Assembly: GCA_019454045.1 (NCBI GenBank)
Contig: SKCR01029101.1
Span: 186,001 to 250,000, forward strand
From: Zanthoxylum bungeanum
Taxonomy: Eukaryota; Streptophyta; Magnoliopsida; Sapindales; Rutaceae
Reading direction: 5' to 3'
Length of the DNA stretch: 64,000 nt
Below, piece by piece: positions 22,446 through 56,037 of this stretch. The notes below the pieces were generated by a model, which worked only from the letters and a program-made list of their open reading frames with translations, made no database searches and was not told where the DNA came from. Both the position numbers and the translations under genes were made by a program. Numbering within the stretch: the stretch's first letter is position 1; each line of letters opens with the position of its first letter.

Positions 22446-22446
22446 T

Positions 22447-25104: not shown

Positions 25105-25116
25105 ATCTCTCACTTG
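25105..25116 (-). promoter_or_regulatory. polypurine tract of D2
   Basis: On the minus strand GCAAGTGAGAGAT lies directly before the LTR. It differs by one base from the D1 tract, where GGG is present instead of GAG. Confidence 0.8.
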
Positions 25117-25118
25117 CA

Positions 25119-26800: not shown

Positions 26801-26858
26801 TGTTTCGTCGCTGCCTTTTGGGGGGCCTGAGGTTTAGTTCTATCTTAGTTTGTTCTTC

Positions 26859-27600
26859 TCATATCTCTTTGAGGTCAAGTCTACTCCTACTATATTTCTT
26901 GAGAATGAATGCATTCTCTAGAAATTTAGCATTTCGTGAGACAAATGTTCTTTGTTCATTTAGGACGTAGGACACGTATGCTCTTGAGTTCAAGGCATAT
27001 CCTACAAACTTACATTTAACTGCCCTATCATCCAATTTGTTAGTTTGTGTGAGCTTGACATATGCGTCACATCCCCAAACTTTTAGATAACTAAGACTAG
27101 GACGTTTCCTAGACCATAACTCATATGGTGTTTGACTAACAGTCTTGGAAGGAACTTGGTGTAGTAGTAGTGTTACAGTTTCTAAAGCAATACCCCAAAA
27201 TGAAAGAGGTAGATCCATCTCTGACATCATTGATTGGACCATATCTAATAATATCTGATTTCTCCTTTCGGAGACCCCATTATGTTGTGGAGTTCCCAGA
27301 GGAGTCCACTGAGAAACAATGCCATTTTCTCTCAAGTAATCTTGAAATTCGTTGCTTAAGTATTCACCACCTCGGTCACACCTTAGTGACTTAATACTTT
27401 TATTAAGCTGGTTTTCTACTTCAGCCTTGAAGTCTTTGAATTTCTCAAAGGCTTCAGATTTGTACCGCATAAGGTACACATACCCATATCGTGAATGATC
27501 ATCGATAAAGGTAATGAAGTAGGAGAATCCACTTCTAGCGGTGACTGACATTGGTCCGCATACATCAGAGTGTATGAGTTCTAATGTCTCCGCTGCATGC
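26859..27600 (-). pseudogene. D2 integrase
   Basis: An open frame of 230 codons (27551-26859): FITFIDDHSRYGYVYLMR, LRCDRGGEYLSNEF, TPQHNGVSERRNQ with the catalytic Glu, LPLSFWGIALETV, VPSKTVSQTPYELW and LKVWGCDAYVK. The LIHSDVCGPM start, with the first Asp, lies just upstream, separated from the pre-integrase frame by stops near 27600. The core is the longest intact enzyme stretch of D2. Confidence 0.92.
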
Positions 27601-28112
27601 TATCATTTACCTTTGAAGGGTAATTTGGTCATTTTACCAAGTAAACAAGACTCACAAGTTCTATAAGGTTTATTTTTGAAGGGTTTGAAATATCCATCCC
27701 TATGTAGCTTAGTTAATCTTGTTTCATTGATATGACCTAAGCGACTGTGCCATATAAGTGATTCATTGAGATTATTCGAGTTAACGTTGTATATATTAGA
27801 GGTTGAACATTCTTTATTAGTTTGTAGGACATAGATACCATTATTCAAAATACCATCTCCATATTTTATTTCATTGAAATAAATAGAACATTCATTACAA
27901 CTTATTAGGCATGAAAAGCCTTTATTACATAAAGAAGAAATTGAAATGATGTTCTTTACTAGAGAAGGTACATAAACACAATCTTCTAAGTCTAAAACTA
28001 AACCATTCGGCAAAGCTAATGAATAATTCCCCACACACAATACAGCCAGTTTTGCTCCATTACCCATGCGTAAGTCAACCTCCCCATGACGGAGTCTCCT
28101 CTGACTGTTTTT
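27601..28112 (-). pseudogene. D2 protease C-terminal and pre-integrase part
   Basis: Frame 28067-27603: MGNGAKLAVLCVGNYSLAL, CVYVPSLVKNIISISSLCN, NNGIYVLQ, then the pre-integrase zinc part LIWHSRLGHINETRL with CESCLLGKMTKLPF. The active-site half of the protease lies at 30105-30200, on the other side of solo LTR E2. Confidence 0.9.
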
Positions 28113-28117
28113 CTCAG

Positions 28118-30099
28118 TGTTGGTTACTATAATTAGTCCCAGGAAAGATTAAGCTTATGAAATACAACAAAATGAATATATATAATAAACTTGAAGCATG
28201 GCGGAATCATACTTACGAAGCTTTTGTGATGAAAAGATGACAAAGGTTGAAGCTCCAAGATCCTTGAAGTTTCGGCCAAGAGGAGAAAAGAGTTGAAAGC
28301 TCCAAGCTTTGTGTATTCCAAGCTCCAAGGTGGTTTCCCTATCACCTCCTTTGATTCCTTGCTTGTGCTAGCAAAAATGGAGAATGAGAAAACAATTTTC
28401 TGCCTTGTTGGTGCAGCTCACGGCGTGAGCAAGAGAGGAAGAGAGGAGAGTGTTTCACTTTTGATTTTCTTTCCTTTGCATGCCAAAAAAACGTGAATGA
28501 CCAAGGAAAATGAAAAGTGAAGTGATATCTAATACCAAAAGAATTTTTTAATGCAAAAATTCTTCCAAAACCGTGCATGGCTTTCCCTCCAAAATGAATC
28601 CATCATTTGCTATCATTACCATACTTTGAGATTAGAGACAATGCATCATCCCTCAAAGGTGACTAGATACATTTACTATCTATTCGTATTAAGTAATGAG
28701 ATATCGCGATGTGATTTGCGGATATCACTCGATTCAAAATAAGAATGTGTCCGCAAGAACTTTCGGGCTCGGTTTCGTTAATTCCAAATTAACGAATTTC
28801 CGTCGCGACGTGAATTAAATAATTACGCCTTGCGAAATTACTATTCAGTTCGCTAATGAATTAATTCTAAATTAATTCGTTTGCCCGAATTAAAATCCGA
28901 TTTTAATTCCTCGTCGAAATCTAATTTCGTTTAATAATATATCGAATATATTATTTTATCGATTAATTCCAGATTAATCGATCTCTCTCTCTCTCCTAAT
29001 AAGGCATTTTATCCAAGATAAAGTTTCTCCGTTATTAATCCAAGATTAATAAAGTTCGAATCAAACATCATAGGTGAATCTTCAGGAAGTGACCCAAGAG
29101 ATCTCCGGATATGTTGGCAGTAAATACGGTCGTTGGATAATCCAAACACGTACGTACCTCGTACTACGTTTTTACCGATTTACAAGACAAGGTTGGCTTC
29201 TAGCAAAGCGCCATGCCTACCCAATTCTCCAGAAATATTCTTACTGGAATATTAGATATATATCAAGCGTAGTATACCGTAGTATTGCGTACATCGATCC
29301 AGTATCGGACGATCACATGTTAGGCCTGGGGCTGGAAATGTGTCTGCCCCGTACGAAACATATATCGGACATCAAGCAACTAGTCTCTTTAAATCGGGCA
29401 ATACTGACCTAGTCATATTGTCCCGACGGTTGCAACCTTTTATAGAGCACTAGTTCTGTATCTTGCGTGATCATCAACTCCATATGTCTGAAGTGACACT
29501 TCCATCTTGACATCACACCCAGTGCACTATGATTCCTGATAAACCCAGAAGAGGTGAACACAGAACCAGTTAAGGTCCCCCAACCACCAAAACCAAAGTT
29601 TACCTATTGTCGCAAGTACTAGCGATGCAAGTCTCAGGTTAAGACCATATACACCTACCCTGATGCGGCCTCCATAGACACGCAGACACACTACCAATGG
29701 GATTCCGCGGGGTCTATCCAGAGCGAAGCTGTTTTCCGTACCATCGGTAAAACACAACCTCCTATCGCACTTGCATAAGTATCCTATACTTAAATATATG
29801 AGAACTATGCCGTTGTGCCCTCACAACATGCACAAGTGCAATACTAGTCTATTCCGCATTATCGATGTCCGATCTCGATAATACTCCGACTAGGGTTATT
29901 TAATGATTTAAACCTTATGTATTGATACTGTCTCATATCATCTCAATACTGAATTAATCATATGGACTTTCGCCATTTATATATCAAAGTAAATAAATTA
30001 CAAAACGGCAAAAGGCATTTCATTATCACATAGTTAATTTTGTACAATAATACAATATCATTTACAAAACAGTGACGCTATGGGTCATAATGTCTAACA
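28118..30099 (-). mobile_element. solo LTR E2, nested in the D2 protease
   Basis: On the minus strand it runs from TGTTAGACATTATG (30099) to AACCAACA (28118), with CTCAG flanking both sides (28113-28117 and 30100-30104). It is 1982 bp and belongs to the same subfamily as E1. The D2 protease reads on across it: VQGL on one side, and the MGNGAKL part about 45 bases beyond the other. It contains the palindrome ladder (28760-29060). Confidence 0.93.
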
Positions 30100-30104
30100 C
30101 TCAG

Positions 30105-31036
30105 GCCCTGCACATTGTTACACAAGTGAGTCCCACAACCGGTGTCAAGCACCCAAGTAGAAGGTTCAGAGTTTTGAGAATATAGTTCAATCATATACAA
30201 CATACCTGAAGCATTGGGCTTCTTGGCCTCTTAGGCTTCCCTAGCTTCCTTAGCTTTCAAGGATCTGCAGTCTTTCTTCCAATGACCCTTCTTTCCACAA
30301 AAGAAATATTTCTCTTTTCCCTTTTTCTTTTCCACCTTACCATTGGGCTTTCGGTGATCTAGAGCCTTGGCCTTGCCCTAATTTTTCTTTGGGCCTCGTG
30401 GCTTCAGGTCCTTACCCGTAAGCATGACGAAGGTTTTAAGCTCCGATTTCAAGTCCTTCTCTGCTTGCTTTATCAGATTGTGCAATTCTACTAAAGTAGC
30501 TTCATTATCAGACAGATGAAACTACATAATAAAGTTAGAGAATTATTTTGGTAAGGACTGAAGAATTAGATCGTGACCTATCTCATGATTCATGATGAAC
30601 CCGAGGTTGGCCAATTTTTCAATGTGGCCAATCATCTTAACCACATGTCCACTAACATATCCTTCCTTATACCTTGTTTGGAATAAGGCACATGATATAT
30701 GAAATCTCACGGTATGAACGGAAGTTGCATACAACTCCTTCAAGTGAAAGATGATGGTTTGAGCATCCATATCTTTGTGAGCTTTTTAAAGTTCGTCCGA
30801 CATAGAGCCAAGCATTATGCAAACTGCTTGTTCATCATCATCGACATGTTTTTTCCAAGCATCAAATGTATCTTGGTCAGCATCTTCTATGGGTTCAAGG
30901 GAAATGGTCTTTCAAGGACATAGAAAATCTTTTCTTGTCGTAAGACAATTTTAAGGTTTCTAAACCAGTAATTATAGTTGTCCCCTTTGAGCTTATGCTC
31001 ATCAAGGATGGAACGAAGTGATACTCTGTTTTCCAT
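30105..31036 (-). pseudogene. D2 gag and protease start
   Basis: The ATG at 31036 opens MENRVSLRSILDEHKLKGDN, then NYWFRNLKIVLRQEK and VLERPFPL. The central part (30770-30543) reads AHKDMDAQTIIFHLKELYAT-like sequence, GHVVKMIGHIEKLANLGF and DLILQSLPK. The zinc knuckle CGKKGHWKKDC lies near 30270-30310, with Phe at the first Cys position. The protease motif WVLDTGCGTHLCNNVQGL ends at the E2 insertion. Several stops and frameshifts break gag. Confidence 0.88.
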
Positions 31037-32400
31037 TTGAATGTTTGTGAAATATTTTAACCCACCTGTTAAGAGAAAATGTTAAAATTAGGAATATATT
31101 TTCATTAATGTTTCATAATAACATGGGCTTTTAATATTATGAAGTTTCTCTCACTCAATTATTTTAAAATTTTAAGCAAATCGCATCAACCCCAATATGA
31201 TGGATTTCTTGTGGGCAAGGATCCCATTATCATCATTTCATAACTCCGACTAGGGCCGGTCGTTATAAAATATGATAATTAGGTAGGTTGCCAACCAATT
31301 TATGATATAAATCATAATTCCTTGATCATTGGGTTGGGAAATCAAACATGCCACAGCTTATGCTAGTCCTTGTGGACACCCAATCTTTGCCACTAAGTTA
31401 TAAGACCACGCCTAAGGGTCGCTGCGTCTTATGACTCAGAAAAGTGAAACCATTGTCAATAGTACGATTTAGGGACAAATTGGTATTGGTCAGTCTGGTA
31501 AAGCCTAGTCCTGCCAATACGGTTTAAGCCCTTTGGGTCTATACTCTACAATAGGAGGCAAATTTTAGACTTGAATTATTATTGAGGATTTTAGAAAGTT
31601 TAAGTGAATAACTGTCAAATGGATTCCTCCATTGAAAATCCTCAGATGGAGGGTGGAGCAAACTCTCTTAAATACCCTTATCTCTTAGGCTCTTATTGCC
31701 TTGGTGACAAGAATAAACAATAGATCCTCCAAATTAGTCCAACACTTTAAATATGCTTTAAGGTAAGCTTTGAGTAAATGATTATCTAGATGTCTTCACA
31801 ACTTTTCCTTTTGGCTATAAAAAGGTAGTGAGTGAAGGAATACACCAAATCATTATCTAACACTAGAAATACCTTTGGTTAAATTAACTTTAGTTTGGAA
31901 AGTTTTATTAACCCCTTGGTCCCAACCCACTTGTATCTTTTATAATGTCTTTTATTATAAACAAGTGATTTATATTTATTAGCCTTAAAGGTAATAAATC
32001 TCTAAGTTCATCACGAAATAATTACTTAGCTAAGGGATAAGCAATACACTCTCTATTTCTTAGAAAGTCTCTAGATGCTTGCACCCTAAAATAATCATGC
32101 CAATTCTAATCATATATAGAATCATCAAGCATATGAGTTTTAATATGTTGGAATTATTTTAAGAATTAAATAACTTTGATTAATATTTAATTATGATATT
32201 GCAATTTATTTTATTCGAATAAATTTAATATTCACGTTTTTCTAACGACGTGTGAACTTTAAATGCAATTTCACAATTCAAAACATAACCAAATCATGCA
32301 AAACTTGTTCCTAAAATTAAGTTCAGGGTGTTAGCTTTCCAACGAGATTTTAAACAACCAATTTCGAGTTCAAATGAGAGAGAACTAATCAAAACAAAAA
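31037..32400 (-). other. D2 leader between PBS and gag
   Basis: 1.36 kb of non-coding AT-rich sequence. A stretch at 31640-31720 (ACCCTTATCTCTTAGGCTCTTATTGCC within it) resembles the F leader at 8190-8240. No ORF is supported. Confidence 0.75.
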
Positions 32401-32417
32401 CGGCGCACTGATACCAC
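32401..32417 (-). promoter_or_regulatory. primer binding site of D2
   Basis: On the minus strand GTGGTATCAGTGCGCCG follows the 5' LTR end directly. It starts like the tRNA-Met site (TGGTATCAG) and then departs from it, so the primer tRNA is not certain. Confidence 0.75.
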
Positions 32418-33545
32418 TATTGGGAAGCGGTCGCGAGTGCGCAGCAGAAAATCAAAATTATTTTGCCGTTTTCCCTCTGCCCAATACCCATTTGTTTTTA
32501 TTATTTTTTAAGCCTAGGCATGTTACTATATATTCTAAGCATAAAACTCATAAAACATGCAAAGAATGTAAACCTAAACATGCTAACTATCATAAGAACT
32601 TTAATTAAAATAAAGAAAGAAAAAAAACTTACTTGAACCGAAGACTCCTGCAGTCCTCCCTCCAATCTACAAGATTTTCTCGAACTCAGCAAGCTCTTCC
32701 ACATTCCAAAGAGCCACCCAAGTGTGTGGCCTCCAAATATGCTTACACCAAAGCCAAAACTCAATGGCAAGACTACGCCTTGAGTGCACGGGTATTTTGC
32801 CCTTGGTGCTAGCCTAGGAAAATACATCAAAACTTTTAACTCGAGGTTCCTCTAGTCAATTAGACTTAAGGATCCTCAAAATCAGTGGCTTACTCTTAAA
32901 CTTTAGAGTTGCTCACTTATATAAACCCAAGATATGAAAAGTTTTGGTGTAGCAAATTTGTAAAGAATTCTTTGGGTTTATATAGTGCTCCAAAGACAAC
33001 AAAATTAATTAAGAATCCGATGTGGAATAAAAGCTAATTTAATCTTAGCCATTGGATCTTAATTTAGTGGTTTAATGAGATTATAAAACCCTAATAAGAG
33101 TTTGGGCCGAATTGGAATTCAATTGGAATAAAATTTTTTTTACTATTCATGTGAATAGTAAAAGTTTTTAAATTCCAAAGTGCCCCTATCGTCATTCACC
33201 AATCCCTAAGCCACTATTGAACCTCATCTGTTCAATAATTAAAGACATTGAACCATTTATGAACAATTCCTACAGCATTAATATATGCTGTTATATTTAT
33301 ACTATGCACTATTAACCATTGATTTCGACTTTGTTGTGTGTGACCTTTTGGGTTCCCCTCAAGTTGGACATGAAATGAATCGTGACAATTTAATCGAACA
33401 TAAATTATCCTCTGATCAGATGGTCGTTCGATTTCAATGACCAAGGTTGACATCTAGCAACATGCCAAGGCCCCCAAATGAGAAGGAAAGATATATATAC
33501 CCATTCTATATGCGATTTACATATGATACGGTCCTTCGCCTCACT
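32418..33545 (-). mobile_element. D2 5' LTR, distal part
   Basis: It matches 11253-12390 closely (same strand) and the reverse complement of D1 up to 2415. The terminal CA is changed to TA. At about 33545 (CGCCTCACTG) it stops at the G insertion and continues at 48113 (CCCCACCTATTGACC). ORFs such as 33232-33453 are also present in D1 (1323-1544) only because the LTRs are copies. Confidence 0.88.
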
Positions 33546-33882
33546 GTTTCTGTGGGACACAGAAACTGGGCGATGCATGCTGTTCCGGGCTCGCGGCCCG
33601 GTTGGGAGTACGGAGTAGCCCATGGGGGACTAAACCGGAGAATAATGGAGTCGCCACCCGGTGTGAACCGGGACAAAGATTTAAGGCCACACTCACCCCT
33701 CGCAAGGGAAGACCTCAAACCATTGGGTTCAGAATGGTCTCTTACTTATGTCACTTGTAATAAATGATTTGTGCAATAATTCAACCAAGCCTAAGCAACA
33801 TATTTCCAATGATAATTTACTCTTAAGTTCGCATGCATAAGTACAAGGCTCATATCTAAGTTCACATGTAACATATCTTCAT

Positions 33883-34419: not shown

Positions 34420-34503
34420 GGTTACAATAGTGACCTCTAAAATGCATGACACATACGTGAACGGATGAATAGATAACACCTAATAAATAATAACGGGCTA
34501 AAA

Positions 34504-34612
34504 GGCGCGGCGAAGTATCATGGTAAAGGTAGACCGTAGGCTTTTTATCCCTCCAAATGGAGGACCTTTAATCCGACTTACTAAGCCCATGCGCAATGCA
34601 ACATGATACATG
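34504..34612 (+). repeat. 177-bp tandem array of G, first unit (cut by K)
   Basis: GGCGCGGCGAAGTATCATGG to TACTAAGCCCATGCGC is the first unit. K is inserted after ACATG. The unit continues at 45088. See the main array at 45083-46278. Confidence 0.85.
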
Positions 34613-36764
34613 TGTTGGAGTTCAATCAAGGTCCCAATGATCACAAATCATGCATAAAAACCGCATATGAACACATCAAGGAGTAAGGCGGAAACATAAC
34701 TCACATTGATTGGTTTTGATGAAATGAAGAAAACGTTTTTTTAAGCTCCCTCCAAGCTCGGCAATGGCTTCTGGAACTGCAGTGGACGCACGGTTTGGGC
34801 TGTGAAAATCTCCTCCATTTTCGGCCATTGATGAGCACCATTGAAGCTCAAAGCTTCAAGCTTTCCAAGCTCATGAAGACACTTCCCTATCACCTATGTA
34901 TAACTCCTAGAGTGTGCTAGCACAAATCATCTTCCTTGCATCTCCATTTTCTCGGTGAAACCAGAAAAAAGAAGAAGAAACGGCAGTGAAGCCGTGAGAT
35001 GAGAGGAGAGAAAAGAGAGGGAAGAGAGAAACCGTATGCCTTGCATGTGAGAGAGAGAAAAAGATTTTAATATATATATATTTTTTTATTTCATTTACCA
35101 AGTAAAATCAATAAAACATATATATCTTATCTTTTTAATTCAAAAGTCAAAAGTTAAAAACAATAAAGCTTTTTCATCATTTCAACTTTTAACTTTAAGT
35201 CACATCACATCTATTCACTTTAATAAAGTGACATGTTGTCAAGTCACATCACTCAAAGTGACAATTGATTTGACGATTGACGCGACTAGCGATTTGACGC
35301 TTGATGTGACTTGCGTGCCGCGCTCGAATTCGAAATGCGAATGCGCTCGCAATCACTCTCGGGCTCGGGTTCGCTAATTCCAAATTAACGAATTTTCCGT
35401 CACGTCATAATTAAATGATTTCGCCTAGCGAATTCACTATTCACGTCGCTAACGAATTAATTCTAAATTAATTCGTTTGCCCGAATTAAAATCTAATTTT
35501 AATTCCGTGTCGAAATCCAATTTCGATTAATATATCGAATATATTAATTTTATCGATTAATTCCAAATTAATCGTTCTCTCTCTTTAATTAACATTTTAT
35601 CCCAGATAAAATATCTCCGCAATCAATCCCAGATTAATTTTCTCTCTCATCGAATTAATCCCAGATTAATTCTATCTCTCTCTTCTAATTAATCCCAGAT
35701 TAATTAAAGTACGAGTCATACATCATCGGTGAATCTTCAGGAAGCGACCCATGAGATCTCCGGATATGTTGGCAGTAAATACGATCGTCGGACTGTCCGA
35801 ACACGTAAGTACCTCGTACTACGTTTATATCGATTTACAAGACAAGGTTGGCTTCTAGCAAAGCGCCATGCCTACCCAATTCTCCAGAAATATTCTTACA
35901 GGAATATATAGATCTGTATCAAGCGTAGTATACCGTAGTATTGTGTATATCGGCCCAGTATCGGATAATCACGTGCTAGGGCTGGGGCTGGATAAGTGTC
36001 TGCCCCGTCCGAAGCACATGTCGGATGTCTGGTAACATAGTCTCTATAATCGGATATACATGACCTGGTCACAATATCCCGATTGGTTGCGCAACACTCA
36101 AGAGCACTAGTACCGTATCCTGCGTGACATCAACTCCAATATGACTGAAGTGATACTTCCGTCTTGATATCACACCCAATACACTACGACTCTCTGATAA
36201 ACCCAGAAATGGTGTACACAGAACCCGTTTAAAGTTCCCTACCACCAAGACCAAAGTCTATCGATTATCGTAAGTATTAGCAATGTAAGTCTCAGGTTAA
36301 GACCATACACACCTACCTTGATTTCGGCCTCCCATAGACACATAGTCATAATACCAATGGGATTCCGAGGGGTCTATCCAGAGCGAAGCTGTTTCCCGTA
36401 CCATCGGTGAAACACGACCTCCTATCGCACTTGCATAAGTATCCAATACTTATATATATGAGAACTATGCCGTTGTGCCCTCACAAACGCTCACAAGTGC
36501 AATACTAGCCTATTCCGCATTATCGATGTCCAGTCTCGATAATACTACGGCTAGGGATATTTAATGATTAAACCTTCGGGGACTGATACTGTCTCATATC
36601 ATTCTCAGTCCAGGTACTAATCATAGGGACCTCTCTTCATTTATATATCTATGGTGCTCTAATCACAAATGATGAGAGTGCAATTTCCTTGTCACATAGT
36701 TAATTTGCTACAACAACACAATGATCTGTGCAAATAGTGACGCTATGGGTCATTTTGTCCAACA
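34613..36764 (-). mobile_element. 3' LTR of K
   Basis: On the minus strand it starts TGTTGGACAAAATGACC at 36764 and ends ACTCCAACA at 34613. It contains the palindrome ladder (35370-35710) with three or so TTAATCTGGGATTAA units. Small frames (34907-35101, 35729-35911, 36069-36254) recur in the other LTR as copies. Confidence 0.93.
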
Positions 36765-36777
36765 ATCTCCCACTTGG
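36765..36777 (-). promoter_or_regulatory. polypurine tract of K
   Basis: On the minus strand CCAAGTGGGAGAT directly precedes the LTR. It is the same as in H (61965-61976), which fits a cis element kept by selection or by recent copying. Confidence 0.85.
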
Positions 36778-36819
36778 CACATAGCCAGTCACTCAAGTGT
36801 CCCACACCTGAACTATGTA

Positions 36820-37260
36820 CGGTTCGCTCAAATTGCTGAGGAAAGGTTTTCGTCAGCGGATTTGCTTAATTATCGTCTGACGCGATTTACACGATCATCA
36901 CATCGCCACGATGTATGATCCGAACGAATCAGATGATATAGAAGTATATATCTGGATCGTCGATGAGACCTTTAATTCTTTAGCCTGTGCTGACGCCTAG
37001 CTCAGCTGCTAACAGAACTATATCTAATCTAATTAGATTTATTATCGATCCAAATGGCTTCTATTACTGCCTCAGCTGCAGCAATAATCCGCATTTGTTG
37101 TTAATTCGGCAACAGTTATCTTGCTCGGAAGATTTCCAGCTCACTGTCCCAGTGTTCAAACTTTATAGTACCGCAATATTTACCGGTTTGGAAACTTGCA
37201 GCAGTGATCCCAGTCACTTCAAGTTCTCAATCTCCATAGTTTAAGACAACATCTTTAGTT
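36820..37260 (-). pseudogene. K RNase H remnant
   Basis: DNA-level similarity to C 21900-22390 is clear on the minus strand: SWKSS-like sequence, then GCCGAATTAACAACA where C has GATTCAACAACA, then AGAAGCCATTTGG. A one-base deletion after the TAT codon and a 25-base deletion (37000 region) shift the frame and remove the YCDN catalytic motif. I and H have the same two lesions. The 37-residue tail with CCGCTGACGAAAACC is still present near 36860. Confidence 0.85.
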
Positions 37261-38330
37261 CTCTCAGATACTAACAGATGTTCTTAATCTTCAATCCAGT
37301 GACTATCACTTGGATTGACCTGATTGTGACTCCATATGCTCGAAGCGTATGAGACACCAATACAAGTACATTTTAAATGTACAATTTCTCAGAGAGTGTT
37401 ACCAACTCCAAATCTAGCCCAGTAGATCTTTATTCCTTGAATAAAGGTTGTTACTCCCCAGAATTCTACGGAGAATTTCTATTGAAAGAATATTCATGAA
37501 AGCCAAGCTTTCACCAATTATTTTATGGGAATTTCATTGTCAGTGCCCTCTCCCACTAACCTCCTTATATACACAAGAATTATTTCGTTTTGAGTTAAAT
37601 CATAAACTATTATGATTATTTCAAAACGTCAGTTCCAAGAACCCTATGCTTGCTTCAATCCAAACATGGATCGAATAACCGGTAAACCTTGTTTGTCGGT
37701 TATACAAAATCGTCAGGATGTTGAAAGCATCCTCCAAAAGCTTTCCTTTTCAGGAAAGCGATTTTGATCTGCAACTGACACATTTCATAAATGAAATATG
37801 CAGTTATCAACAAGCATCTTCAAAATGGATTTACCATGGCAACAGGTAAAAGGTTGAACCGTTATTAACATAATGTTGATAACGATACCTTTCCGTCAAA
37901 AGCCTAGCTTTGTACGTTGGTCTGTTGCCATCCATGTATGTCTTCCTTGAAGACGTATAAAGTACCAATAGGCACAATGCTTTGTGGTACAACAACTAGT
38001 ATCCATAATAGTCGTTATACATGGAATCCATTTCGGACTCATGGCACTTTGCCATAACAGGGAGTCGATACCTCGTATCACTTCCTCAAAACGTAGTCGG
38101 TGGATATACCTTCATAAGATTGACATCTTAATGAGGTTAGATCAGAAACCCATGCCCTAGGTTGTTTTCTGACTCTATCCGATCTACCCGATTTCTTGTG
38201 TATTTGAAGATTAATGGTACAGATTCATCATAGATGAATTGTTTGTGTTCCATTAAGGACTTCGTGCTTTGAATAGTATTACTCTGATTTTCATCGAGTA
38301 TCACTATCCTCCTACTGACCACTGCATATC
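37261..38330 (-). pseudogene. K reverse transcriptase remnant
   Basis: DNA similarity to C 20641-21900 runs through in order (for example PERYGFLI at about 38150, and CTTGTTTGTCGG near 37690). At about 37530-37545 the sequence passes from GGGCACTGACAATG straight to AAATTCCC. This drops about 40 bases that in C encode the YVDD catalytic box. Stops occur in all frames; the longest pieces are about 60 codons (38081-37896, 38322-38137). No RT activity is possible. Confidence 0.85.
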
Positions 38331-39110
38331 GGTATTCCTCTCAGGAAAACCGCATGGTGAGCAACAATCACATTGTTCTCATTTGGGATTTATAAGTACT
38401 ATACTTATGGTTTCCCTTAGGATAACCTATATTGGCACTAATCCAATTTGGGTTCTTAGTTTGGTATCATCCAAACTTTATGCCTGGCATACCCAAATTA
38501 TCAGGAATGAGAAACCTCGTTTCTTTCCTGTTCATATCCTATATGATATCTGTCAAACAGATTTACATGGAACCTTATTCTAAATAAGTTTTGCACTGTT
38601 AATACATATCCTGTTGAAGGAAACAGTAGCTCAGAGCGACTCGCGAAAAACCTAATCATGTCCAACAAAACTTGGTTTTTTAGTTCTGACACACCGTCTA
38701 TTGACGTGTCTCGGGAGGAGTCCTCATATGAAAGAATACCGTACTCTTTCATGTACGTATGAAACTTACTGCTTAAGTATTTACCATACGGTCTTACCGT
38801 AGCGGCATAATACTACAGCCGATCTGTTTGTATACTTCGTGTCGAAACTCAAAGTTTCGTATTTGTGTTCTTCAAAAGAAACACATAACCATAACGTGAT
38901 GCCTCATCCGTTAAGGTCACGAAATATTCATGTACACATCTAGCCAAGCTAGATATGGGCCCACTTACTTCACCATGAATAGGGCTAACAGATCGGTGGC
39001 ACTTACACTATTACCTAGTAAATAGTATTTTAGGTACTTTACCTAGTAAACTAGATTCGTAGACCTTATTTGAATAGTCAAATCAGTCCTTGTACCCACT
39101 CTTCAAAAGT
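38331..39110 (-). pseudogene. K integrase remnant
   Basis: Order and DNA similarity to C 19901-20640 are clear. The frame 38752-38501 includes MKEYGILSYEDSSRDTS and GVSELKNQVLLDMIR, where the catalytic Glu context is partly kept. The GDVSGPIS-type start and GRYGKYL-like stretch lie at 38940-38760. There are many stops. Confidence 0.8.
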
Positions 39111-40440
39111 GTGGATATACGAGTCTTGTTTAATTGTGTCCCAGACAACAATGCCACAAATAAGTCTCTATTGATCAAATCAATATGAGCTATTTATTTG
39201 TCATTTTATATGTTTGAGATTTTATTTATATTCAAAATATAAATTCTGTTATTCACATCTAATGTGTTTATCTCGGTATCATCTTTATATAATAAAACAC
39301 TTAGTGTTCTAGAATATAAAGGTTTTATCCGCAATGGATTAAACACTGATATAGAGATAATGTTCTAGTCAAACTAGTTACATTATAACAGTTCCTAATT
39401 TAAGTACGCACCCAAGGGTAGTTCCTAAACTTAGGTATCTACGGTCGAAACAGCGACTTTCGTCCCGTTTCCGATTCGCAGAGAAATCTCAGCTTGAAGT
39501 CAGTATCCTGCTCAAAGCAGATTCTGAATATCAATACATATATATTATGTACCACACTAAGTATTTAAAATCTAATTTCAATACTAGCTGTGAACATAAC
39601 TAAGACAAACATTTTTAAAGTTAGAGCCTCGCCCTTTCTTTAATTCCTTCGTGTCTTCCATATCCAAATGGTAGTCACTTTGGGATATGTCAATTATCCT
39701 TTTCAATATTTCACAAACCTTTGGCCAAGCCTTGGGTTTCGGAATATCGAAACGATATGCACCTTGTGCTACATGCCCAATTGCAAACTTTGACTTTCTC
39801 CCACTAGAATAGTCAATTAATTCTCCAAGAATTATTAATTGCAATTTTAATACTTTTAAATCTAAAGATAGATTTATTATAAGTATATTAATTAAGCATT
39901 AAAGTCATCATCACATAAATCTTCCAAAGATTTTATGCTCTACTATTTGCTTAATTTTGGGCGTAACGTATAATAAGTTATTTTATCAAATAAAGTAACC
40001 TATTATTTATTCCCAATTTGAAAATTAAATCATTTAAAATATTTTAATCCCAGATTATATTTTAAATATTCAACTTTTCAATCTCTTATCTTGATTACAA
40101 TAATCCAACTATTTAATCAACGATTAGTGGTACTATATATATTATAATGATTATAATAGTCCAACTATATAATCAAATATAATCCAAATTAATTAACCTC
40201 AATTACATTGATTACTATAATCCAATTATAAAATCAACTGTAAACTGAAATTAATTAATTCAAATATATTGATTAATATAATCCAATTATATATAATCAA
40301 GTATAATACAGTCCAACTGTTTATTAAAACAACAATTTAAATATTAGTTCAACTAACATTTAATATTACGACGAAATAATTTAAATGAGCGTGTTTAGCG
40401 AGTAATTGAACGAATGTTGCAAATTCAATACTTGCCTCCC
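39111..40440 (-). pseudogene. K protease and gag remnant
   Basis: On the minus strand, a LRIGNGTKVAVST-like protease stretch lies at about 39440-39490. The frame 39844-39584 holds the gag end (KPKAWPKVCEILKR). Where H and I have the zinc knuckle (CLNCGKRGHWMRDC in I), K goes from TATCCCAAAG directly to TGACTACCATTTGG, so the knuckle is deleted. Further upstream the sequence is AT-rich and only faintly similar to gag. Confidence 0.75.
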
Positions 40441-42916
40441 ACTATTTTTCGTCGAGCCTCTAACCCTCTGTGGAGTACTCGGGAAACCGTGTTTCCTAGT
40501 GGGCTAGGATCCTATTAAATAACACACAACCCTGACTTTGGCCAATAAAAAGCTGTATGCTATTTAACTAGGTAGATCTCACAGATCAATTGGATCTCAT
40601 CCAATTCCTAGATCCGGTTAGGTGGACATCCAGTCCGAAACATATGTATAATGTCAATCTATCCATTACATTTTCCTAACCCTATCCTCTAAATCATCTA
40701 GGCCTTGGCTTTGGCCAAAAACAAACCTAATGATTCCAGTTAAGCTGGACCCATTGACGAGGAAAGTTTTGTAATCAATGTCATTGGACAAAAAGTGATC
40801 TGACTTTGGCCAATAAAAATCACGATTTGGACAAGACACCGATATGCAACAAAACTCTCATGATTCAAGTACATCCTTGATTGACAAAGGTCTTGACTTT
40901 GGTCAATAAAAACCAATGCCAACTTCGGATCTTGAACAAGAATCATTCAATGGAAGGATATTTTGCTTAATATAAAACGAGGGTTTTTCGCGTGCAAATT
41001 GGCTACCAATTTAATTATCTTTGTTAAGGTCTCATCATCATACACCCTTAAACATGCATTCTAAATACATAATAAAGCGTATATGAAAATAAAATAATAA
41101 TGATATGCGGATGGATATTTTACATTGATCCTAGATCAAATCTCTCACTTTCTCTCTCCCGCTAGCACTTGTATTACTTCTACCCGTTACACTACACTTC
41201 TAAAGAAACCTCTTTTACATGGAGGGGAATAGGTGAGAAGAGAATACAAAGAAATAAGAGATAAGGCTGGACACGCAGGTCCAATTTAATAAATCAAATT
41301 TATTACAATTTCCAAAATCGCCCAACCCGACTAATATCCATCCGATATACATTATTCAAACATCACAACCATGTATTCATACAAGCATGTTATCAATCAA
41401 TCAATCAAATTAATAATCTTGATTATTAGTGATCATCCAATGTTCAAACAAAGATTTGATTTTTGTTCGAGTCAAACTCGTTTTTGTGAACACGTACTCA
41501 AAGTACGATTTCTACGAATTAAATTAAACTACATAATTAAATCCAATTTAATACGTATTTAATTCTAATTCATTATTTAATTCTAAATTAAATATTACAC
41601 TTTTATTAACGAACCTTTACGACTTAAATTCCAAATTTAATCGCAACGGGTCTCAAAGCCCGATTAACATCTAATGTTTTATTTAATTAAAGTCTAATGG
41701 GCTTTTAATTAATTTCTATAGGCGTGGACTTTTGGTCAACTCGGGTCAAACCGAACAACCAAAATCCAATCCGGGAGTTACCCCATAAGCCTTTAAATTA
41801 ATTTTGGCCCATTAGGCCCAATTAAATAATTAAGGTCCATTAAGTCATAATTGGACCTTTTGGATTCGGTTTTGGGCCTAATTGGATCCAACCAATTTTG
41901 CCTAAACCCAACTTTGTTACAACAAAAAGCCCAAAAGCCCAATTACAACCTAACAAGCCCAATTTCCAAAATCAAGCCCAAATTAATTAACTTATAAAAT
42001 TCCAAATTTCACAATTAATTAACCTAAGTGTAATACACAATCAATTACCCAATTAACATTTCTAAAATATCAATTAGCCTAATTAATCATGCACTTTAAC
42101 AACCAAATAGTGTCCAACACAATTCAATTGAAATCAAACCCAATTAACATGCTATTAAGTCTCGGCAATTAGGGGTTTTTCAATTCGATTCGGTTTCAAT
42201 CCAATTGAGTCCACAATCTTAATTTCCCAAATAAATACAATTCATCCAATGAATTAAAACAAAAAATCACAATAAATTTCATGTTCCTAAGATTCGGCCA
42301 AGCCACTTTAAAAGGGAAAAATGTTCCAAATCAAAATTCAATCCAATTGAACTTCAAAACAACATTAACCAATTGTTTTAAGTCATCCAATGATCAAACA
42401 AAACAAAATTACCAAGACATTAGGTTCTTCCAATTTTCGGCCAAGCCTCCAATTTGGGGAAAATTGAATCCAATCCAATTTCATGAAATTGATCACACAC
42501 AATCTCAATTAAACATGTTCTAAGCATACTTAAACATCCAATTAGATTAAAACATGCTTAAACACATTTTTTCCAATTGCAAGTTTCATTTCAACCTAAA
42601 GAATTGGGGAAAATTGATCTAATCCAATTTTCTTGAAATTGATCATGCACAACTTCAATTCAACCTCATTCAAGCATAATGCATCAAACAATTCAACCAA
42701 ATCATGCCTAAATCGAGTTTACCCAAATTAAAGTTTTGACAAAAATAAGCAAATTGGGGAAAATTAATCCAATCAATTTTTTATCAAATTGATTACATAC
42801 AACTCAAATTCAATCATATATAATCATCCTCAAACAATCAATTAGACAGAATCAAGCTAAAATAAAAAAGCCCCAAATTTGCTCAAGAACCCTAATTCGG
42901 TTTTCATGCAACAAAA
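40441..42916 (-). other. K leader between PBS and gag
   Basis: Non-coding, AT-rich and well preserved relative to C, H and I. It holds the three-fold TTGGCCAAAGTCAAG-type motif in antisense at about 40542, 40800 and 40892, GGGCC-rich words at 41700-41960, and a 150-bp tandem array near the PBS (42380-42850). No ORF is supported. Confidence 0.8.
42380..42850 (-). repeat. 150-bp tandem repeat in the K leader, three units
   Basis: TTGGGGAAAATTG (or TTGGGGAAAATTA) starts at 42454, 42604 and 42754, exactly 150 bases apart, with similar sequence around each. H has an unrelated 37-bp array at the corresponding place. Confidence 0.8.
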
Positions 42917-42928
42917 GCTCTGATACCA
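42917..42928 (-). promoter_or_regulatory. primer binding site of K
   Basis: On the minus strand TGGTATCAGAGC begins one base after the 5' LTR, a canonical initiator tRNA-Met site. Confidence 0.9.
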
Positions 42929-42929
42929 T

Positions 42930-45082
42930 TGTTGGAGTTCAATCAAGGTCCCAAGGATCACAAATCATGCATAAAAACCGCATATGAACACATCAAGGAG
43001 TAAGGCGGAAACATAACTCACATTGATTGGTTTTGATGAAATGAAGAACATGCGTTTTTAAGCTCCCTCCAAGCTCGGCAATGGCTTCTGGAACTGCAGT
43101 GGACGCACGGTTTGGGCTGTGAAAATCTCCTCCATTTTCGGCCATTGATGAGCACCATTGAAGCTCAAAGCTTCAAGCTTTCCAAGCTCATGAAGACACT
43201 TCCCTATCACCTATGTATAACTCCTAGAGTGTGCTAGCACAATCATCTTCCTTGCATCTCCATTTTCTCGGTGAAACCAGAAAAAAGAAGAAGAAACGGC
43301 AGTGAAGCCGTGAGATGAGAGGAGAGAAAAGAGAGGGAAGAGAGAAACCGTATGCCTTGCATGTGAGAGAGAGAAAAAGATTTTAATATATATATATTTT
43401 TTTATTTCATTTACCAAGTAAAATCAATAAAACATATATATCTTATCTTTTTAATTCAAAAGTCAAAAGTTAAAAACAATAAAGCTTTTTCATCATTTCA
43501 ACTTTTAACTTTAAGTCACATCACATCTATTCACTTTAATAAAGTGACATGTTGTCAAGTCACATCACTCAAAGTGACAATTGATTTGACGATTGACGCG
43601 ACTAGCGATTTGACGCTTGATGTGACTTGCGTGCCGCGCTCGAATTCGAAATGCGAATGCGCTCGCAATCACTCTCGGGCTCGGGTTCGCTAATTCCAAA
43701 TTAACGAATTTTCCGTCACGTCATAATTAAATGATTTCGCCTAGCGAATTCACTATTCACGTCGCTAACGAATTAATTCTAAATTAATTCGTTTGCCCGA
43801 ATTAAAATCTAATTTTAATTCCGCGTCGAAATCCAATTTCGATTAATATATCGAATATATTAATTTTATCGATTAATTCCAAATTAATCGTTCTCTCTCT
43901 TTAATTAACATTTTATCCCAGATAAAATATCTCCGCAATCAATCCCAGATTAATTTTCTCTCTCTCATCGAATTAATCTCAGATTAATTCTATCTCTCTC
44001 TTCTAATTAATCCCAGATTAATTAAAGTACGAGTCATACATCATCGGTGAATCTTCAGGAAGCGACCCATGAGATCTCCGGATATGTTGGCAGTAAATAC
44101 GATCGTCGGACTGTCCGAACACGTAAGTACCTCGTACTACGTTTATATCGATTTACAAGACAAGGTTGGCTTCTAGCAAAGCGCCATGCCTACCCAATTC
44201 TCCAGAAATATTCTTACAGGAATATATAGATCTGTATCAAGCGTAGTATACCGTAGTATTATGTATATCGGCCCAGTATCGGATAATCACGTGCTAGGGC
44301 TGGGGCTGGATAAGTGTCTGCCCCGTCCGAAGCACATGTCGGATGTCTGGTAACATAGTCTCTATAATCGGATATACATGACCTGGTCACAATATCGCGA
44401 TTGGTTGCGCAACACTCAAGAGCACTAGTACCGTATCCTGCGTGACATCAACTCCAATATGACTGAAGTGATACTTCCGTCTTGATATCACACCCAATAC
44501 ACTACGACTCTCTGATAAACCCAGAAATGGTGTACACAGAACCCGTTTAAAGTTCCCTACCACCAAGACCAAAGTCTATCGATTATCGTAAGTATTAGCG
44601 AAGTAAGTCTCAGGTTAAGACCATACACACCTAGCTTGATTTCGGCCTCCCATAGACACATAGTCATAATACCAATGGGATTCCGAGGGGTCTATCCAGA
44701 GCGAAGCTGTTTCCCGTACCATCGGTGAAACACGACCTCCTATCGCACTTGCATAAGTATCCAATACTTATATATATGAGAACTATGCCGTTGTGCCCTC
44801 ACAAACGCGCACAAGTGCAATACTAGCCTATTCCGCATTATCGATGTCCAGTCTCGATAATACTACGGCTAGGGATATTTAATGATTAAACCTTCGGGGA
44901 CTGATACTGTCTCATATCATTCTCAGTCCAGGTACTAATCATAGGGACCTCTCTTCATTTATATATCTATGGTGCTCTAATCACAAATGATGAGAGTGCA
45001 ATTTCCTTGTCACATAGTTAATTTGCTACAACAACACAATGATCTGTGCAAATAGTGACGCTATGGGTCATTTTGTCCAACA
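42930..45082 (-). mobile_element. 5' LTR of K
   Basis: Nearly identical to 34613-36764. Observed differences include one base at about 43237, one at 43820, two extra bases near 43960, and single changes around 44260, 44397, 44600 and 44633. It ends at 45082 and is followed by ACATG. Confidence 0.93.
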
Positions 45083-46278
45083 ACATGATTATGCAAGAAG
45101 ATGACATACAAAGAAAAGCGAATAACGAAATAAAAGGGCGCGGCGAAGTATCATGGTAAAGGTTCTTTAACCCCTCGAAATGGAGGACCTTTAATCCAAC
45201 TTACTAAGCCCATGTGCAAATAACACAATACATATATAAAAAGTAAAGACAATGATATCAGACTTCGTGTATCCGATTGAACATATCTAACATCCAATCG
45301 AATATACATTATCCGGCGCGGCAAAGCATCGTGGTAAAGGATTTTAACCTCTCAAAATAGAGGACCTTTAATCGCACTTACTAAGCCCATGCGTAAACAA
45401 CACAATACATATATAAAAAGTAAAGACAACGATATCGGACTTCGTGTATCCGATTGAACATATCTCACATCCAATCGAATATACATTATCCGGCGCGGCA
45501 AAGCATCGTGGTAAAGGATTTTAACCTCTCAAAATAGAGGACCTTTAATCGCACTTACTAAGCCCATACTCTAATAACACGATGCATATAAGAAATAAGG
45601 ACAACAATATCGGACTTCTTATACCCGATTGAACATATCTCACATTCAACCGAATATACATCATCTGGCGCGGCAAAGCATCGTGGTAAAGGATTTTAAC
45701 CTCCCAAAATAGATGACCTTTAATCGCACTTACTAAGCCCATGCGCAAACAACACAATACATATATAAAAAGTAAAGACAACGATATCGGACTTCGTGTA
45801 TCCGATTGAACATATCTCACATCCAATCGAATATACATTATCCGGCGTGGCAAAGCATCGTGGTAAAGGATTTTAACCTCTCAAAATAGAGGACCTTTAA
45901 TCGCACTTACTAAGCCCATACTCTAATAACACGATGCATATAAGAAATAAAAGAAACAACAATATCGGACTTCGTATACCCGATTGAACACATCTCACAT
46001 TCAACCGAATATACATCGTTCGGCGCGACGAAGCATCGTGGTAAAGGATTTTAACCTCTCAAAATAGAGGACCTTTAATCGCACTTACTAAGCCCATGCG
46101 CTAATAACACAATGCATATAAAAGATAAAAGAAACAACAATATCGGACTTCGTATACCCGATTGAACACATCTCACATTCAACCGAATATACATCGTCCG
46201 GCGCGGCGAAACATCGTGGTAAATGATTTTAACCTCTCAAAATAGAGGACCTTTAATCTCACTTACTAAGCCCATGCA
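45083..46278 (+). repeat. tandem array of about 177-bp units in G
   Basis: Units begin GGCGCGGC(A/G)AAGCATCG at 45137, 45315, 45492, 45667, 45844, 46022 and 46200, that is 175-178 bases apart. Each has GGTAAAGGATTTTAACC, GAGGACCTTTAATC and TTACTAAGCCCAT. With the first unit before K this makes eight. Neighbouring units alternate between two subtypes: CACAATACATATATAAAAAG and CACGATGCATATAAG. The 102-residue minus frame at 45545-45853 is made by the repeat period and is not taken as a gene. Confidence 0.92.
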
Positions 46279-48904: not shown

Positions 48905-48965
48905 AACACGACTTTGGGCCCGGGTTCGTTTAATCCGATTAAACGAATTTTCCGTCGCTAAATAA
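48905..48965 (-). mobile_element. LTR piece L, right part
   Basis: GGGCCCGGGTTCG, then a palindrome GTTTAATCcGATTAAAC, then CCGTCGCTAAATAA, in antisense to the LTR. This agrees with the H LTR (55440-55490, reverse complement). It stops at about 48965, where leader sequence of I in the opposite orientation begins. Confidence 0.65.
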
Positions 48966-50530
48966 ATTGACATTGGATGTTAATTGGCTTTGAGACCCGT
49001 AAAGATTAGATTTAGAATCTAAGTCATAAAGGCACATTAAAAAGTGTAATTATTTAATTTGGAATTAAATAAAGAATTAGTATTGAATAAAAATTAAATT
49101 GGATTTAATGTTGTAGTTTGATATAATTCGAGAATTCGTACTTTGAGTACTTATTCTTAAAACGAGTTTGACTCGCGCAAATCAAATCGTTGTTTGAACA
49201 TTGGATGGTCATTAATTTCAGATTAATTAATTGTATTAGATTGATTGATAACATGCTTTGTGTGAATACATGGATGTGATGTATGAATAATGTATATCGG
49301 ATGGATATTAGATGGGTGAGGGCAATTTTGGAAATTATTGTAATAAATTTAGAATTTATTAAATTGGACCTGCGTGTCCAGCCTATTACCTCTTGATTCT
49401 TTGTATTTCTATTCTCACCTATTCACCTCAATGTAAATGAGGTTTCTTTAGAAGTGTTATGTAATTGGGTAAAAGTAAGATTTGTGCTAGCGGGAGAGAG
49501 GAAATGGAGAGATTTGTTCTAGGAACAAGTTGTTTTAAAATATTTATCCGCATATCATTATTAATTTATTTACCGCTCCTTATTATGCTTTTAGAATGCA
49601 TGTTTAAGGGTGTATGATGAGACCTAATCAAAGATAATTAATTGGTTGCTAATTACCCGAAAAACCCTCAACAAATATTAAGCGTTTTTCCTTCCATTGA
49701 ATGATTCATTCTCAAGATCCAAGATTGGCACTGGTTTGTCGGCCAAAGTCAAGACCTTTGTCCATCGCGGATGTGTTTGAATCATGAAGGCTTTGTTCCA
49801 TATCGCATGTCTTGTCCAAGTTGTGATTTTTGGCCAAAGTCAAGATCACTTCTTATCCATCGACATCGATTACGAAGCTTTCCAAGGTCAATGGGTCCCG
49901 CTTAACTGGAATCATTAAGTTTGTTGTGCCAAAGCTAAGGCTTAATTGATTCAGAGGAAAAAGGTTAGGCAATATATCATATATATTGGTATATATTAGA
50001 TATATGTTTCGGACTTGGTTGTCCACCTACTGGATCTAGGAATTGGATTAGATCCAATTGATCTTAGAGATCTACCTAGTTAAATATCATACAGCTTGTT
50101 GGCCAAAGTCAAGGTTGTGTGTTATTTAACGGGATCCTAGCCCATTAGGAAACAAGGTTTCCCGAGTACTCAACAGAGGGTTAGAGGCTCGCCGAAAAAT
50201 AGTGGGAGGCAAGTATTAAATTTGCAATTTCGTTTAGATACTTGCCAATACGCGCTCATTTCAATTTTTCGTCATTACTTAAATATATATTAGTTGGACT
50301 AATATTTAATTGTTGTTTTAATTAAACAGTTGGACTGTATCCAAACTACTTCAATTTATTGTTGATTATATAATTGGATTATAGTAATCAATATATTTGC
50401 ATTTAACAAATCAAATTATAGTTGATTATATAGTTAGACTATAGTAATCATTATATTCAATAGTACCCGAAATCGTTGATTGGATAGTTGGACTATAGCA
50501 ATCAAGATAACTGAGAGATTAGCGTTTAAA
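48966..50530 (+). other. leader of element I (5' truncated)
   Basis: From TGACATTGGATGTTAATTGG it follows the leaders of C (15200-16530) and H (56900-58460) closely. It has the three TTGGCCAAAGTCAAG-type copies at 49739, 49830 and 50099, and ends with GTGGGAGGCAAGTATT-type sequence before gag. Its own 5' LTR and PBS are missing. Confidence 0.8.
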
Positions 50531-51800
50531 ACATAATCCTGGGAGAAAATGTCTTTAAACGGCTCCAATTTTCAGAATGGGAATAAAACCTCAAGATAGT
50601 CATGGGAACTAAGAAGTTACTCTATTTGATAGAGAAACCTCTTGGGCCTAAGCCCGAAGTTGAGCAAATAGTAGAACATGATATTTGGAAGATTCATGTG
50701 ATGATAACTTTAGTGCTCAATCATTTATACTTACCGCAATGACACTTTAATTCCGTCGTCAAAATTAAGGATTAGATCATTGTACCATGATGATGAAATT
50801 AAAGATCTTCATAGATCTTCGTAGATCTATTATTAGATCTTAAAAGTACAAATTGCAAAAGAAGCTCTTTCGCTCACGTATGTCAGAGGGTATATCTGTC
50901 GAGCACTAGGTGTCACAGATGATTGCCGACATTGATCAACCAGGTTAGCTGGGCATTACCTACGTGGCCGAGACTACCAAAGATTTGATCTTATAGTCTC
51001 TACCTGAAAGCTGGGGCAGATTCATTATGAACTAAGAGAAAACTCTTGGAGAGTTGAAGGCTATGCTCAAGGAGGCAGAGCCAGAGCTTCTAAAAAGGGC
51101 AAAGGCAAAATCATTACAGCCTTCTGGGAAGACAAATGACATATCCCAGATGTCTGCCTAAACTGTGGAAAACGGGGTCACTGGATGCGTGACTGTCGTA
51201 TGGACAAGGCAGACATGAAGGAAGTGAAAGCGGGGCAAGGCTCCGGCTTCAAGTATGTTTGTCATAAACATTTTCACTATTAGTTTCAAAATTGGATTTT
51301 TGATACTAGATATGGTACATAAATATGTACTGATGTGCGAGATCTGCTGATAAGCAGGATACTGATTTCAGTTGAGATTGATCTGCGAATTGGAAACGGG
51401 ACTAGAGTCGCTGTTTTAACGGTAGAAACCTAAGTTTGGGAACTACCCTTTTGGTAAGTATTTAAATTAGGAAACTGTTATAATGTACCTAGTTTTACTA
51501 GAAACATTATCTCTATATCTATGTTTAACCCGTTGTGGGTATACCTTTATATTCTAGAACACTAAAGTGTTTTATTTTATAAAGATGATATTGAGATAAA
51601 CACATTAGATGTAAATAACAGTATTTATATTTTGAATATAAATGAATCTCATACGTATGACATGACAAACAAATAGCTCATACTGAATTAATCAGATGAG
51701 ACTTATTTGTGTCATTGTTGTCTGGGACACATTAAACAAGACTCGTATATCCATAATTTCGAAGAGTGGATACTAGGACAGATTTGATTCTATTCAAATG
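50531..51800 (+). pseudogene. I gag and protease remnant
   Basis: Aligns by DNA to C 16560-19900. LLYLIEKPLGPKP can be read at 50610-50655. The zinc knuckle CLNCGKRGHWMRDC at about 51154-51196 is complete, better than in C. The protease region (WIFDT-like at 51293, LRIGNGTRVAVLT at about 51380) is broken by stops and frameshifts. Confidence 0.8.
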
Positions 51801-52555
51801 ATGTCTACGAATCTAGTTTATTTAGGCAAAGTGCCTAAAACACCTTTTACTTGGTAAAAGTGCAAATGCCATCGATCTGTTAGCCCTCGTTCATAGTGAC
51901 GTAAGTGGACCCATATCTAGCTAGGCTAGAAGTGGATATGAATACTTCGTAACCTTTACGGATGTGGCATCGCGTTATGGTTATGTGTTTCTTTTTTAAA
52001 CACGGATCGAAAACTTTGATAAAATTCAAAGAGTTTCGACACGAAGTATAACAGACAGATCGGCTAAAGTGTTAAACCATCACGATTGGACCATGATGAA
52101 AATACTTAAGCAATAAGTTTCTCAATTACTTGAAAAAGTATAGTATTCTTTCACTGTGGACTCCTCTCGGAACACCTAAATTTGACGGTGTGTCCAAACT
52201 GAGAAACCAAATTTTGTTAGACATGATAAGGTTAATCATGAGTCGCTCTGAGCTACCATTTTCCTTATAGGGATACGCATTAAACAGTGCAATACTTATT
52301 TTGAATAAGGTTCCATAAAAATCTGTTTGACAGACTTCATATTAGATATGAACAGGAAAGAAACCAGGTTTTCTCATTCCTGAAGATTTGGGAATGTTAG
52401 ACATATGTTTGGATGATTCCAAACCAGAACCCAAATCAGATAAGTGCCTAATTTGTAGGTTATCCTAGGGTAACCAAAGTAAAGTACTTATACAATTCAC
52501 AAGAGAACAATGTAATTGTTGCTCTCCATGCGGTTTTCCTAAGAGGAATACCAAT
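51801..52555 (+). pseudogene. I integrase remnant
   Basis: Similar in order to C: an SLVHSDVSGPIS-type start near 51880, GYEYFVTFTD at about 51940, a degraded D-x-G-x-E box near 52095, and GVSKLRNQILLDMIR near 52190. Many stops; the catalytic core is not readable in one frame. Confidence 0.8.
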
Positions 52556-53640: not shown

Positions 53641-54025
53641 AGGATGCCTTCTTAAGCTACGGAGAAGGAGAACTTGAAGTGACTGGGTTCACTGCTGTAA
53701 GTTTCCAAACCAACAAAAACGACTATAAGTCGTAATAAGGGGTACTATATAGTTTGAATAACGGAACAGTGAGCTGGAAATCTTCCAAACAAGATACTGT
53801 TGCCGAATAAACAACAAAAGCGGAATATTTCTGCAGCTGATGAAGCAATAGAAGCCATTTGGATCTATAATAATCCTAATCAGATTAGGTGTAATTATGT
53901 TAGCAGCTGAGCTAGGCTATAGCATAGGCTAAAGAATTAATGGTCTTATCAACGATCCAAGTATATACTTCAACTGTTCATCTGATTCGTTCGGATCATA
54001 CATCGTGGCGATGTGATGATCGAAT
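53641..54025 (+). pseudogene. I RNase H remnant, first part (split by H)
   Basis: Similar to C 21920-22330 with [11 protein letters not shown] sequence, the GAATAAACAACA stop, the one-base deletion after TAT, and the 25-base deletion of the YCDN motif (near 53912), all also found in H. It stops at CGAAT (54021-54025), where H is inserted, and continues at 63885. Confidence 0.85.
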
Positions 54026-56022: not shown

Positions 56023-56023
56023 A

Positions 56024-56037
56024 TGGTATCAGAGCCA
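56024..56037 (+). promoter_or_regulatory. primer binding site of H
   Basis: TGGTATCAGAGCCA, one base after the LTR: the canonical initiator tRNA-Met site. Confidence 0.92.

Follow-up and report, generated by a model that had tools for sequence, protein, structure and literature searches.

The window analysed here is a stretch of 64,000 nt from Zanthoxylum bungeanum (contig SKCR01029101.1, positions 186,001 to 250,000). It contains, at positions 34613-45082 on the minus strand, an element designated K, a long terminal repeat (LTR) retrotransposon of the Ty1/copia type in which the coding part is destroyed. The element was recognized from its LTR pair, target site duplication (TSD), primer binding site (PBS), polypurine tract (PPT) and remnants of a copia gag-pol, and its total length is 10,470 nt. 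The 5' LTR (42930-45082, minus strand, 2153 nt) and the 3' LTR (34613-36764, minus strand, 2152 nt) have the termini TGTTGG...CCAACA and are bordered by two perfectly matching copies of the TSD ACATG at 34608-34612 and 45083-45087. The PBS TGGTATCAGAGC (42917-42928, minus strand), which we take to be of the initiator tRNA-Met type, is separated from the 5' LTR by one base on the interior side, and the PPT CCAAGTGGGAGAT (36765-36777, minus strand) adjoins the 3' LTR. These copia hallmarks (TG...CA LTRs, 5-nt TSD, PBS and PPT) are present in K, and the perfect duplication and the preserved PBS and PPT stand as given in the initial annotation of this DNA; both sites are properly placed. The PBS and PPT agree with those of a neighbouring element, D, and those of another relative, C, are close.

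Between the LTRs, the minus strand of K carries a long non-coding leader (40442-42916), a gag remnant (39578-40441) and a pol remnant (36980-39577) in which protease, integrase, reverse transcriptase (RT) and RNase H follow one another in order, interrupted by many frame changes and stops. A Pfam search with three pieces of open reading frame from K found a copia domain in none of them, and the coding remains were traced by DNA and tblastn comparison. By tblastn the remnants of gag, protease, integrase, RT and RNase H are all recognizable, and the integrase remnants (39133-38343) lie upstream of the RT remnants (37947-37179), which is the copia order. The leader contains a degenerate 150-nt tandem repeat in its 5' part (42454-42844). 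A motif around GGCCAAAGTC occurs two to four times, close variants included, in the 3' leader of K (40530-40910, minus strand) and of the related elements C, D and E, with copies often approximately 90 nt apart; it is a candidate packaging or regulatory signal. A 177-nt satellite forms an array of 6.4 copies at 45137-46277, with more units to the left of K near 34489-34611, so that K is located in the array or at its edge. The CpG observed/expected ratio of the array, 1.55, is higher than that of any element part measured.

Three relatives of K in the window are important for the comparison. Element C (12469-24379, plus strand) has a mostly readable gag-pol, and its proteins match Pfam RVT_2, rve and Retrotran_gag_2. 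Element D (54024-63885, plus strand) is the sister of K in pol, and E (48959-54023, plus strand) is a third member of the same dead lineage. The segment 48959-63885 reads E interior, LTR, D interior, LTR, with the middle LTR serving as both the 3' LTR of E and the 5' LTR of D; the present copy of E is without a 5' LTR, the first part of the leader and a PPT at its LTR. A more distant and apparently older copia element, F (11252-12466 and 24381-33550, minus strand), is broken up by C, which appears to have inserted into it, and by a solo LTR. The family of K, C and D is also represented by two solo LTRs, S1 (17210-18611, inside C) and S2 (approximately 28707-30102, inside the gag region of F), which are 92% alike. 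The LTR pairs of C, D and K differ by 6.1%, 3.3% and 0.6%, respectively, where the value for D may not date a single insertion because its 5' LTR doubles as the 3' LTR of E.

Alignment of the two K LTRs over 2151 sites gave 13 substitutions (6 transitions and 7 transversions), or 0.60%, together with two indel events of 1 nt and 2 nt. The initial annotation had estimated about ten substitutions and three indels; these counts needed correction, while the youth of the pair is confirmed. Four of the 13 differences are packed within 6 nt (34732-34737 compared with 43049-43054) and may represent one complex mutation. Plant substitution rates are approximately 0.7-1.3e-8 per site per year, and at these rates the LTR divergence corresponds to an insertion age of roughly 0.2-0.5 million years.

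The decay of the interior is of a different order. The pol regions of C, E, D, K and F were aligned and the indels and stops were sorted by carrier; the 31 of 101 indel events that the script could not assign to a clade, four tree-conflicting frameshifting ones among them, were excluded. Stops were found in K at 27 of the 1035 codons examined, along with 45 frameshifting indels in approximately 2.9 kb, while the LTR divergence predicts that only 0.32 stops and 1.3 indels should have arisen after insertion. The two LTR indel events compared with 27 K-private indels of any length give a binomial p of 2.6e-9. An LTR divergence as high as the internal decay, which had been named as the observation that would overturn a late movement of a defective K, is therefore not what is seen. 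Element C provides the internal control that separates pre-insertion from post-insertion decay: its four stops and two frame changes compare with 4.15 and 1.87 predicted by its LTR age, and its decay is no greater than that age predicts. K is far more decayed than its LTR age allows, which argues that it was already enzyme-dead at landing.

The same conclusion is reached from lesions that K has in common with D and E. An RT-thumb deletion of approximately 165 nt (junction 37373-37374, minus strand) is found at the same place in all three elements, with ends within a few nt, although the matching tolerance of the script scored it as common to D and K only. A 26-nt deletion (junction 36998-36999, minus strand) removes the RNase H motif YCDN from the three elements, and both segments are retained in C and F. 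In the motif table the integrase zinc Cys, the RT Asp (in WQMDVK), the RNase H Asp and YCDN are changed or missing in each of E, D and K. Other losses belong to the branch of K. A gap of approximately 40 nt (junction 37544-37545, minus strand) deletes the RT YVDD segment in K alone, while D and E retain it in place with Val changed to Asn; a gap of approximately 39 nt, also K-only, takes most of the zinc knuckle from a gag that also has deletions in common with D. The initial annotation was right that K lacks YVDD, the zinc knuckle and YCDN. As to its question of whether other copies have the same deletions, the YCDN loss is common to D and E, and the other two are confined to the K branch; it had missed that YCDN and many further K lesions occur in these neighbours.

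These lesions are mostly nested. All four pol segments examined join D and K with support of 0.97-1.00, giving the topology ((D,K),E), and the 45 frameshifting indels of K divide into 9 that all three elements carry, 13 that K has in common with D, and 23 private to K. When the nesting was rechecked with four further alignments of C, E, D and K made under different settings, frameshifting indels common to K and D numbered 21, 18, 15 and 18, against 6, 5, 6 and 7 conflicting ones (E with K or E with D); K-private events numbered 31, 36, 36 and 34. Eight stops are common to E, D and K where 0.15 would be expected by chance (384 stop-prone codons), and 14 are common to D and K where 2.3 would be expected. 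The clade test covers three copies only. The simplest reading is that the catalytic residues had already been lost in the ancestor of K, D and E. Lesions common to the three elements indicate, independently of LTR dating, that a dead template moved; even a single window, with the LTR dates set aside, shows that an enzyme-dead copia lineage continued transposing. The initial annotation held that K moved while already defective or very nearly so. Movement in the defective state is supported by the LTR age set against the lesions, with C as control, and independently by the shared lesions and by two public proteins described below; on the simplest reading of the motif table the word nearly can be dropped.

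The distribution of substitutions over codon positions was evaluated in the frame of C from gapped alignments. The bias is not significant on the branches of K (p = 0.23), D (p = 0.25) and E (p = 0.57) and on the stem of D and K (p = 0.64). It is present on the stem of E, D and K (p = 0.004) and on the C branch (p = 0.003), both values being conditioned on agreement with F, and C and F compared directly are strongly uneven (282, 216 and 469 changes at the three positions; p = 9e-24). The simplest reading is that gag-pol function was lost late on the stem of E, D and K, before E split from D and K.

Copies outside the window give further information. A K fragment of 103 amino acids searched among public proteins led to P0121, one of two candidates, and a second fragment of 71 amino acids led to P0122, the single candidate. 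P0121 carries YGILSYEDSSRDTS, which is the shifted frame of K, at a place where D, E and C are in the coding frame; P0122 reads through the frame change common to D and K and the next K-private one, where D needs two frames. From these sequences P0121 and P0122 share K-branch frameshifts, which suggests that several copies date from after the damage. The RT of C, used as a query, found open relatives in plants, the best among the matches listed being P0037 (84% identity over 81% of the query). The matches listed, at least 120, include Hibiscus, Lolium and Paspalum, and none is tied to K. The same RT had no match among viral contigs, a pattern search of genome contigs returned 12 matches of which none is a relative, and no donor LTR for K was found in the 64-kb window.

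We propose, with a probability of about 0.9, that K is a non-autonomous copy from a Ty1/copia-type lineage which had become enzyme-dead before the present copies spread and was mobilised in trans. The LTRs and the TSD show that K was copied and integrated, and since K has no usable gag, integrase or RT gene, the proteins would have been supplied in trans. In the mechanism envisaged, gag-pol would have been lost in an ancestor from which K, D and E all descend; K has retained LTRs, PBS and PPT. The LTR promoter of K would drive an RNA that contains the PBS, the leader and the PPT, and the proteins of a related autonomous element would package, reverse transcribe and integrate it. Such trans-mobilisation would have taken place at least twice in the lineage, the latest case being K. 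The neutral interiors of dead lineages could then reveal the cis sequences needed in trans-mobilisation.

Several points weigh against this interpretation. No autonomous donor was seen; C is the only coding relative at hand, and with a K-C pol identity of only 72% it is not established as a close enough helper. The sequences of P0121 and P0122, which stem from contigs of 605 and 552 nt, are protein strings, so the identity of their frameshifts is read from protein and not from DNA. Restricted to columns with no gap nearby, the codon-position test gives p = 0.074 on the K branch and p = 0.097 on the D branch, and for the D-K pair over all columns p is 0.061; on the K branch and in the D-K pair position 1 is low with no third-position excess, while on the D branch position 3 is highest. 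Four frameshifting indels in the first alignment contradict the tree (two in E and K, two in E and D). E and D stand in tandem with a common LTR and may not represent two independent insertions, and the missing PPT of E counts here as well. As to the control, C has three stops within the examined codons, and two of them fall at the same codons as other stops (one with E, one with D and E), so that C itself may already have carried a stop or two on arrival. Finally, the leader tree pairs C with D (0.905) and not K with D. Recombination in the history of the elements is likely enough to be kept as a rival, and it need not exclude trans-mobilisation of a dead lineage.

Branch rates bear on how the movement took place. 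At sites with no gap around them, and taking D and E for reference, 164 of 1855 pol sites changed on the K branch and 90 of 1781 on the D branch (p = 4e-6), and private indels number 41 and 9 (p = 6e-6). The pol of K thus acquired approximately 1.8 times the substitutions and more than four times the indels of its sister over equal time. The 3' leader of K changed at the rate of dead pol (70/815 compared with 164/1855, p = 0.88), and the idea of the leader as a conserved packaging region was rejected, the leader being no slower than pol on this branch. The U3 part of the K LTR is slower than the interior (41/718 compared with 164/1855, p = 0.009, references D and S1); with D and C as references the values are 45/693 and 147/1650 (p = 0.057). 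D has no such difference (p = 0.63), and the LTR side opposite U3 is fast on the K branch (27/169). This pattern is compatible with free mutation of the interior and promoter selection over repeated cycles, and exchange of the LTR with a partner is also compatible. The ratio of transitions to transversions in the K interior, 122:112, is lower than in the LTR pair of C (78:40, p = 0.017) and does not differ from that of D (35:28, p = 0.67). Methylation-type deamination as a sign of dormancy was considered and led to no firm conclusion, K differing from the LTR pair of C and not from that of D; the CpG observed/expected values in pol (K 0.81, C 0.81, D 0.66 and F 0.50) are suggestive only in this respect.

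A tentative extension, which we regard as possible though not probable, is that the K lineage is an obligate passenger clocked by transposition cycles and not by host years. Reverse transcription errors would accumulate in the interior, including the leader, while the U3 side, PBS and PPT would be kept by selection. This extension is prompted by the excess of substitutions and indels over D, by a U3 that is not accelerated and by a transition share below that of the LTR pair of C, though not that of D. If true, the smallest set of cis sequences that trans-mobilisation requires in nature would be mapped by dead lineages of this kind.

Among the rival explanations, template switching in a mixed particle deserves most attention. 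It would have set an old interior between the LTRs or leader of another element; it is compatible with trans-mobilisation and would account for the slow U3 of K. The discordant leader tree points in its direction, as does a K-D identity of 75% over the whole LTR compared with 85% in pol, and old members of Arabidopsis Onsen re-enter cycles by recombination according to the part of PMC5668417 concerned. However, the LTR tree, which has long branches, groups K with D (0.998) just as the four pol segments do, and no donor LTR was found in the window; we consider such an exchange rather unlikely. It could also be that only a single rescue took place, in which a long-dormant dead copy was transcribed and gave rise to K, with no continuing dead lineage. 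On its own branch the K interior has moved approximately 9-11% away from the D/E state while the LTRs are 0.6% apart, as a late rescue would give. However, the older lesions are also in D and E and the K-branch lesions also in P0121 and P0122, which would mean several copies after the damage, and K changed faster than D over equal time in both substitutions and indels; a single rescue is accordingly improbable.

The two remaining rivals concern DNA-level events. LTR identity by itself is no bar to gene conversion, by which an old K that decayed in place would mimic youth. Such conversion would have to homogenise both 2.15-kb LTRs end to end with the TSD staying clean, and the lesions in common with D, E, P0121 and P0122 indicate moving defective templates whatever the LTRs; we find it very improbable. 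The initial annotation had counted a conversion tract among the results that would undo its claim, but the shared-lesion argument would survive one. Spread by segmental duplication of DNA in place of transposition has the tandem arrangement of E and D, with their common LTR, in its favour. However, K has its own TSD, the target site considered here being that of K, and sits at the 177-nt satellite array, and duplication of DNA does not reset LTR identity; this explanation is hardly credible. Elsewhere in the window, tandem and inverted 31/63-nt repeats at 7078-7320 have no K-family match in the comparison of window elements.

A literature search, made without the host name, found no description of the particular family of K, and its assignment to a class was considered from its features. 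A large retrotransposon derivative (LARD) has a large interior with no recognizable coding remains, and K was rejected as such because remnants of gag, protease, integrase, RT and RNase H are recognizable. A terminal-repeat retrotransposon in miniature (TRIM) is very short, about 1 kb or less, and K with its 10,470 nt was rejected as one.

The behaviour proposed for K has parallels in known systems. The pol-less Athila families of Arabidopsis, in the portion of PMC2410132 that describes them, are defective, have been replicating for more than 2 million years and are explained by enzymes supplied in trans, as is proposed for K; the difference is that several copies there keep open reading frames under purifying selection, while K, D and E show none. 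The likeness to Onsen, within the relevant section of PMC5668417, is that old members re-enter transposition. However, recombination was observed there among members in one burst, while the K interior shows a long neutral decay within a mobile lineage. BARE2 of barley, as described in part of PMC9744471, is a defective copia element thought to depend on the proteins of a relative. In that account gag alone is disrupted, while K lost RT, integrase and RNase H motifs too, and K was rejected as a gag-only parasite of the BARE2 type. The closest parallel appears to be wheat RLC_Angela. The passages of PMC9744471 on this family report monophyletic non-autonomous sub-families of similar length and with highly degenerate coding sequences, which move together with autonomous ones. 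Like them, K is a copia element of near coding-copy length filled with frameshifts and stops (27 stops and 45 frameshifting indels in 10,470 nt), and it belongs to one defective clade, here ((D,K),E) with mostly nested lesions in three copies. The wheat case comprises whole sub-families with known autonomous partners and LTR pairing, while here there are few copies and no partner. The non-autonomous copies there are more than 85% identical to the autonomous ones, compared with 72% for the pol of K and C, and the likeness is one drawn from description. As far as that account goes, K fits the same kind as the non-autonomous RLC_Angela elements of wheat, where the principle was already known.

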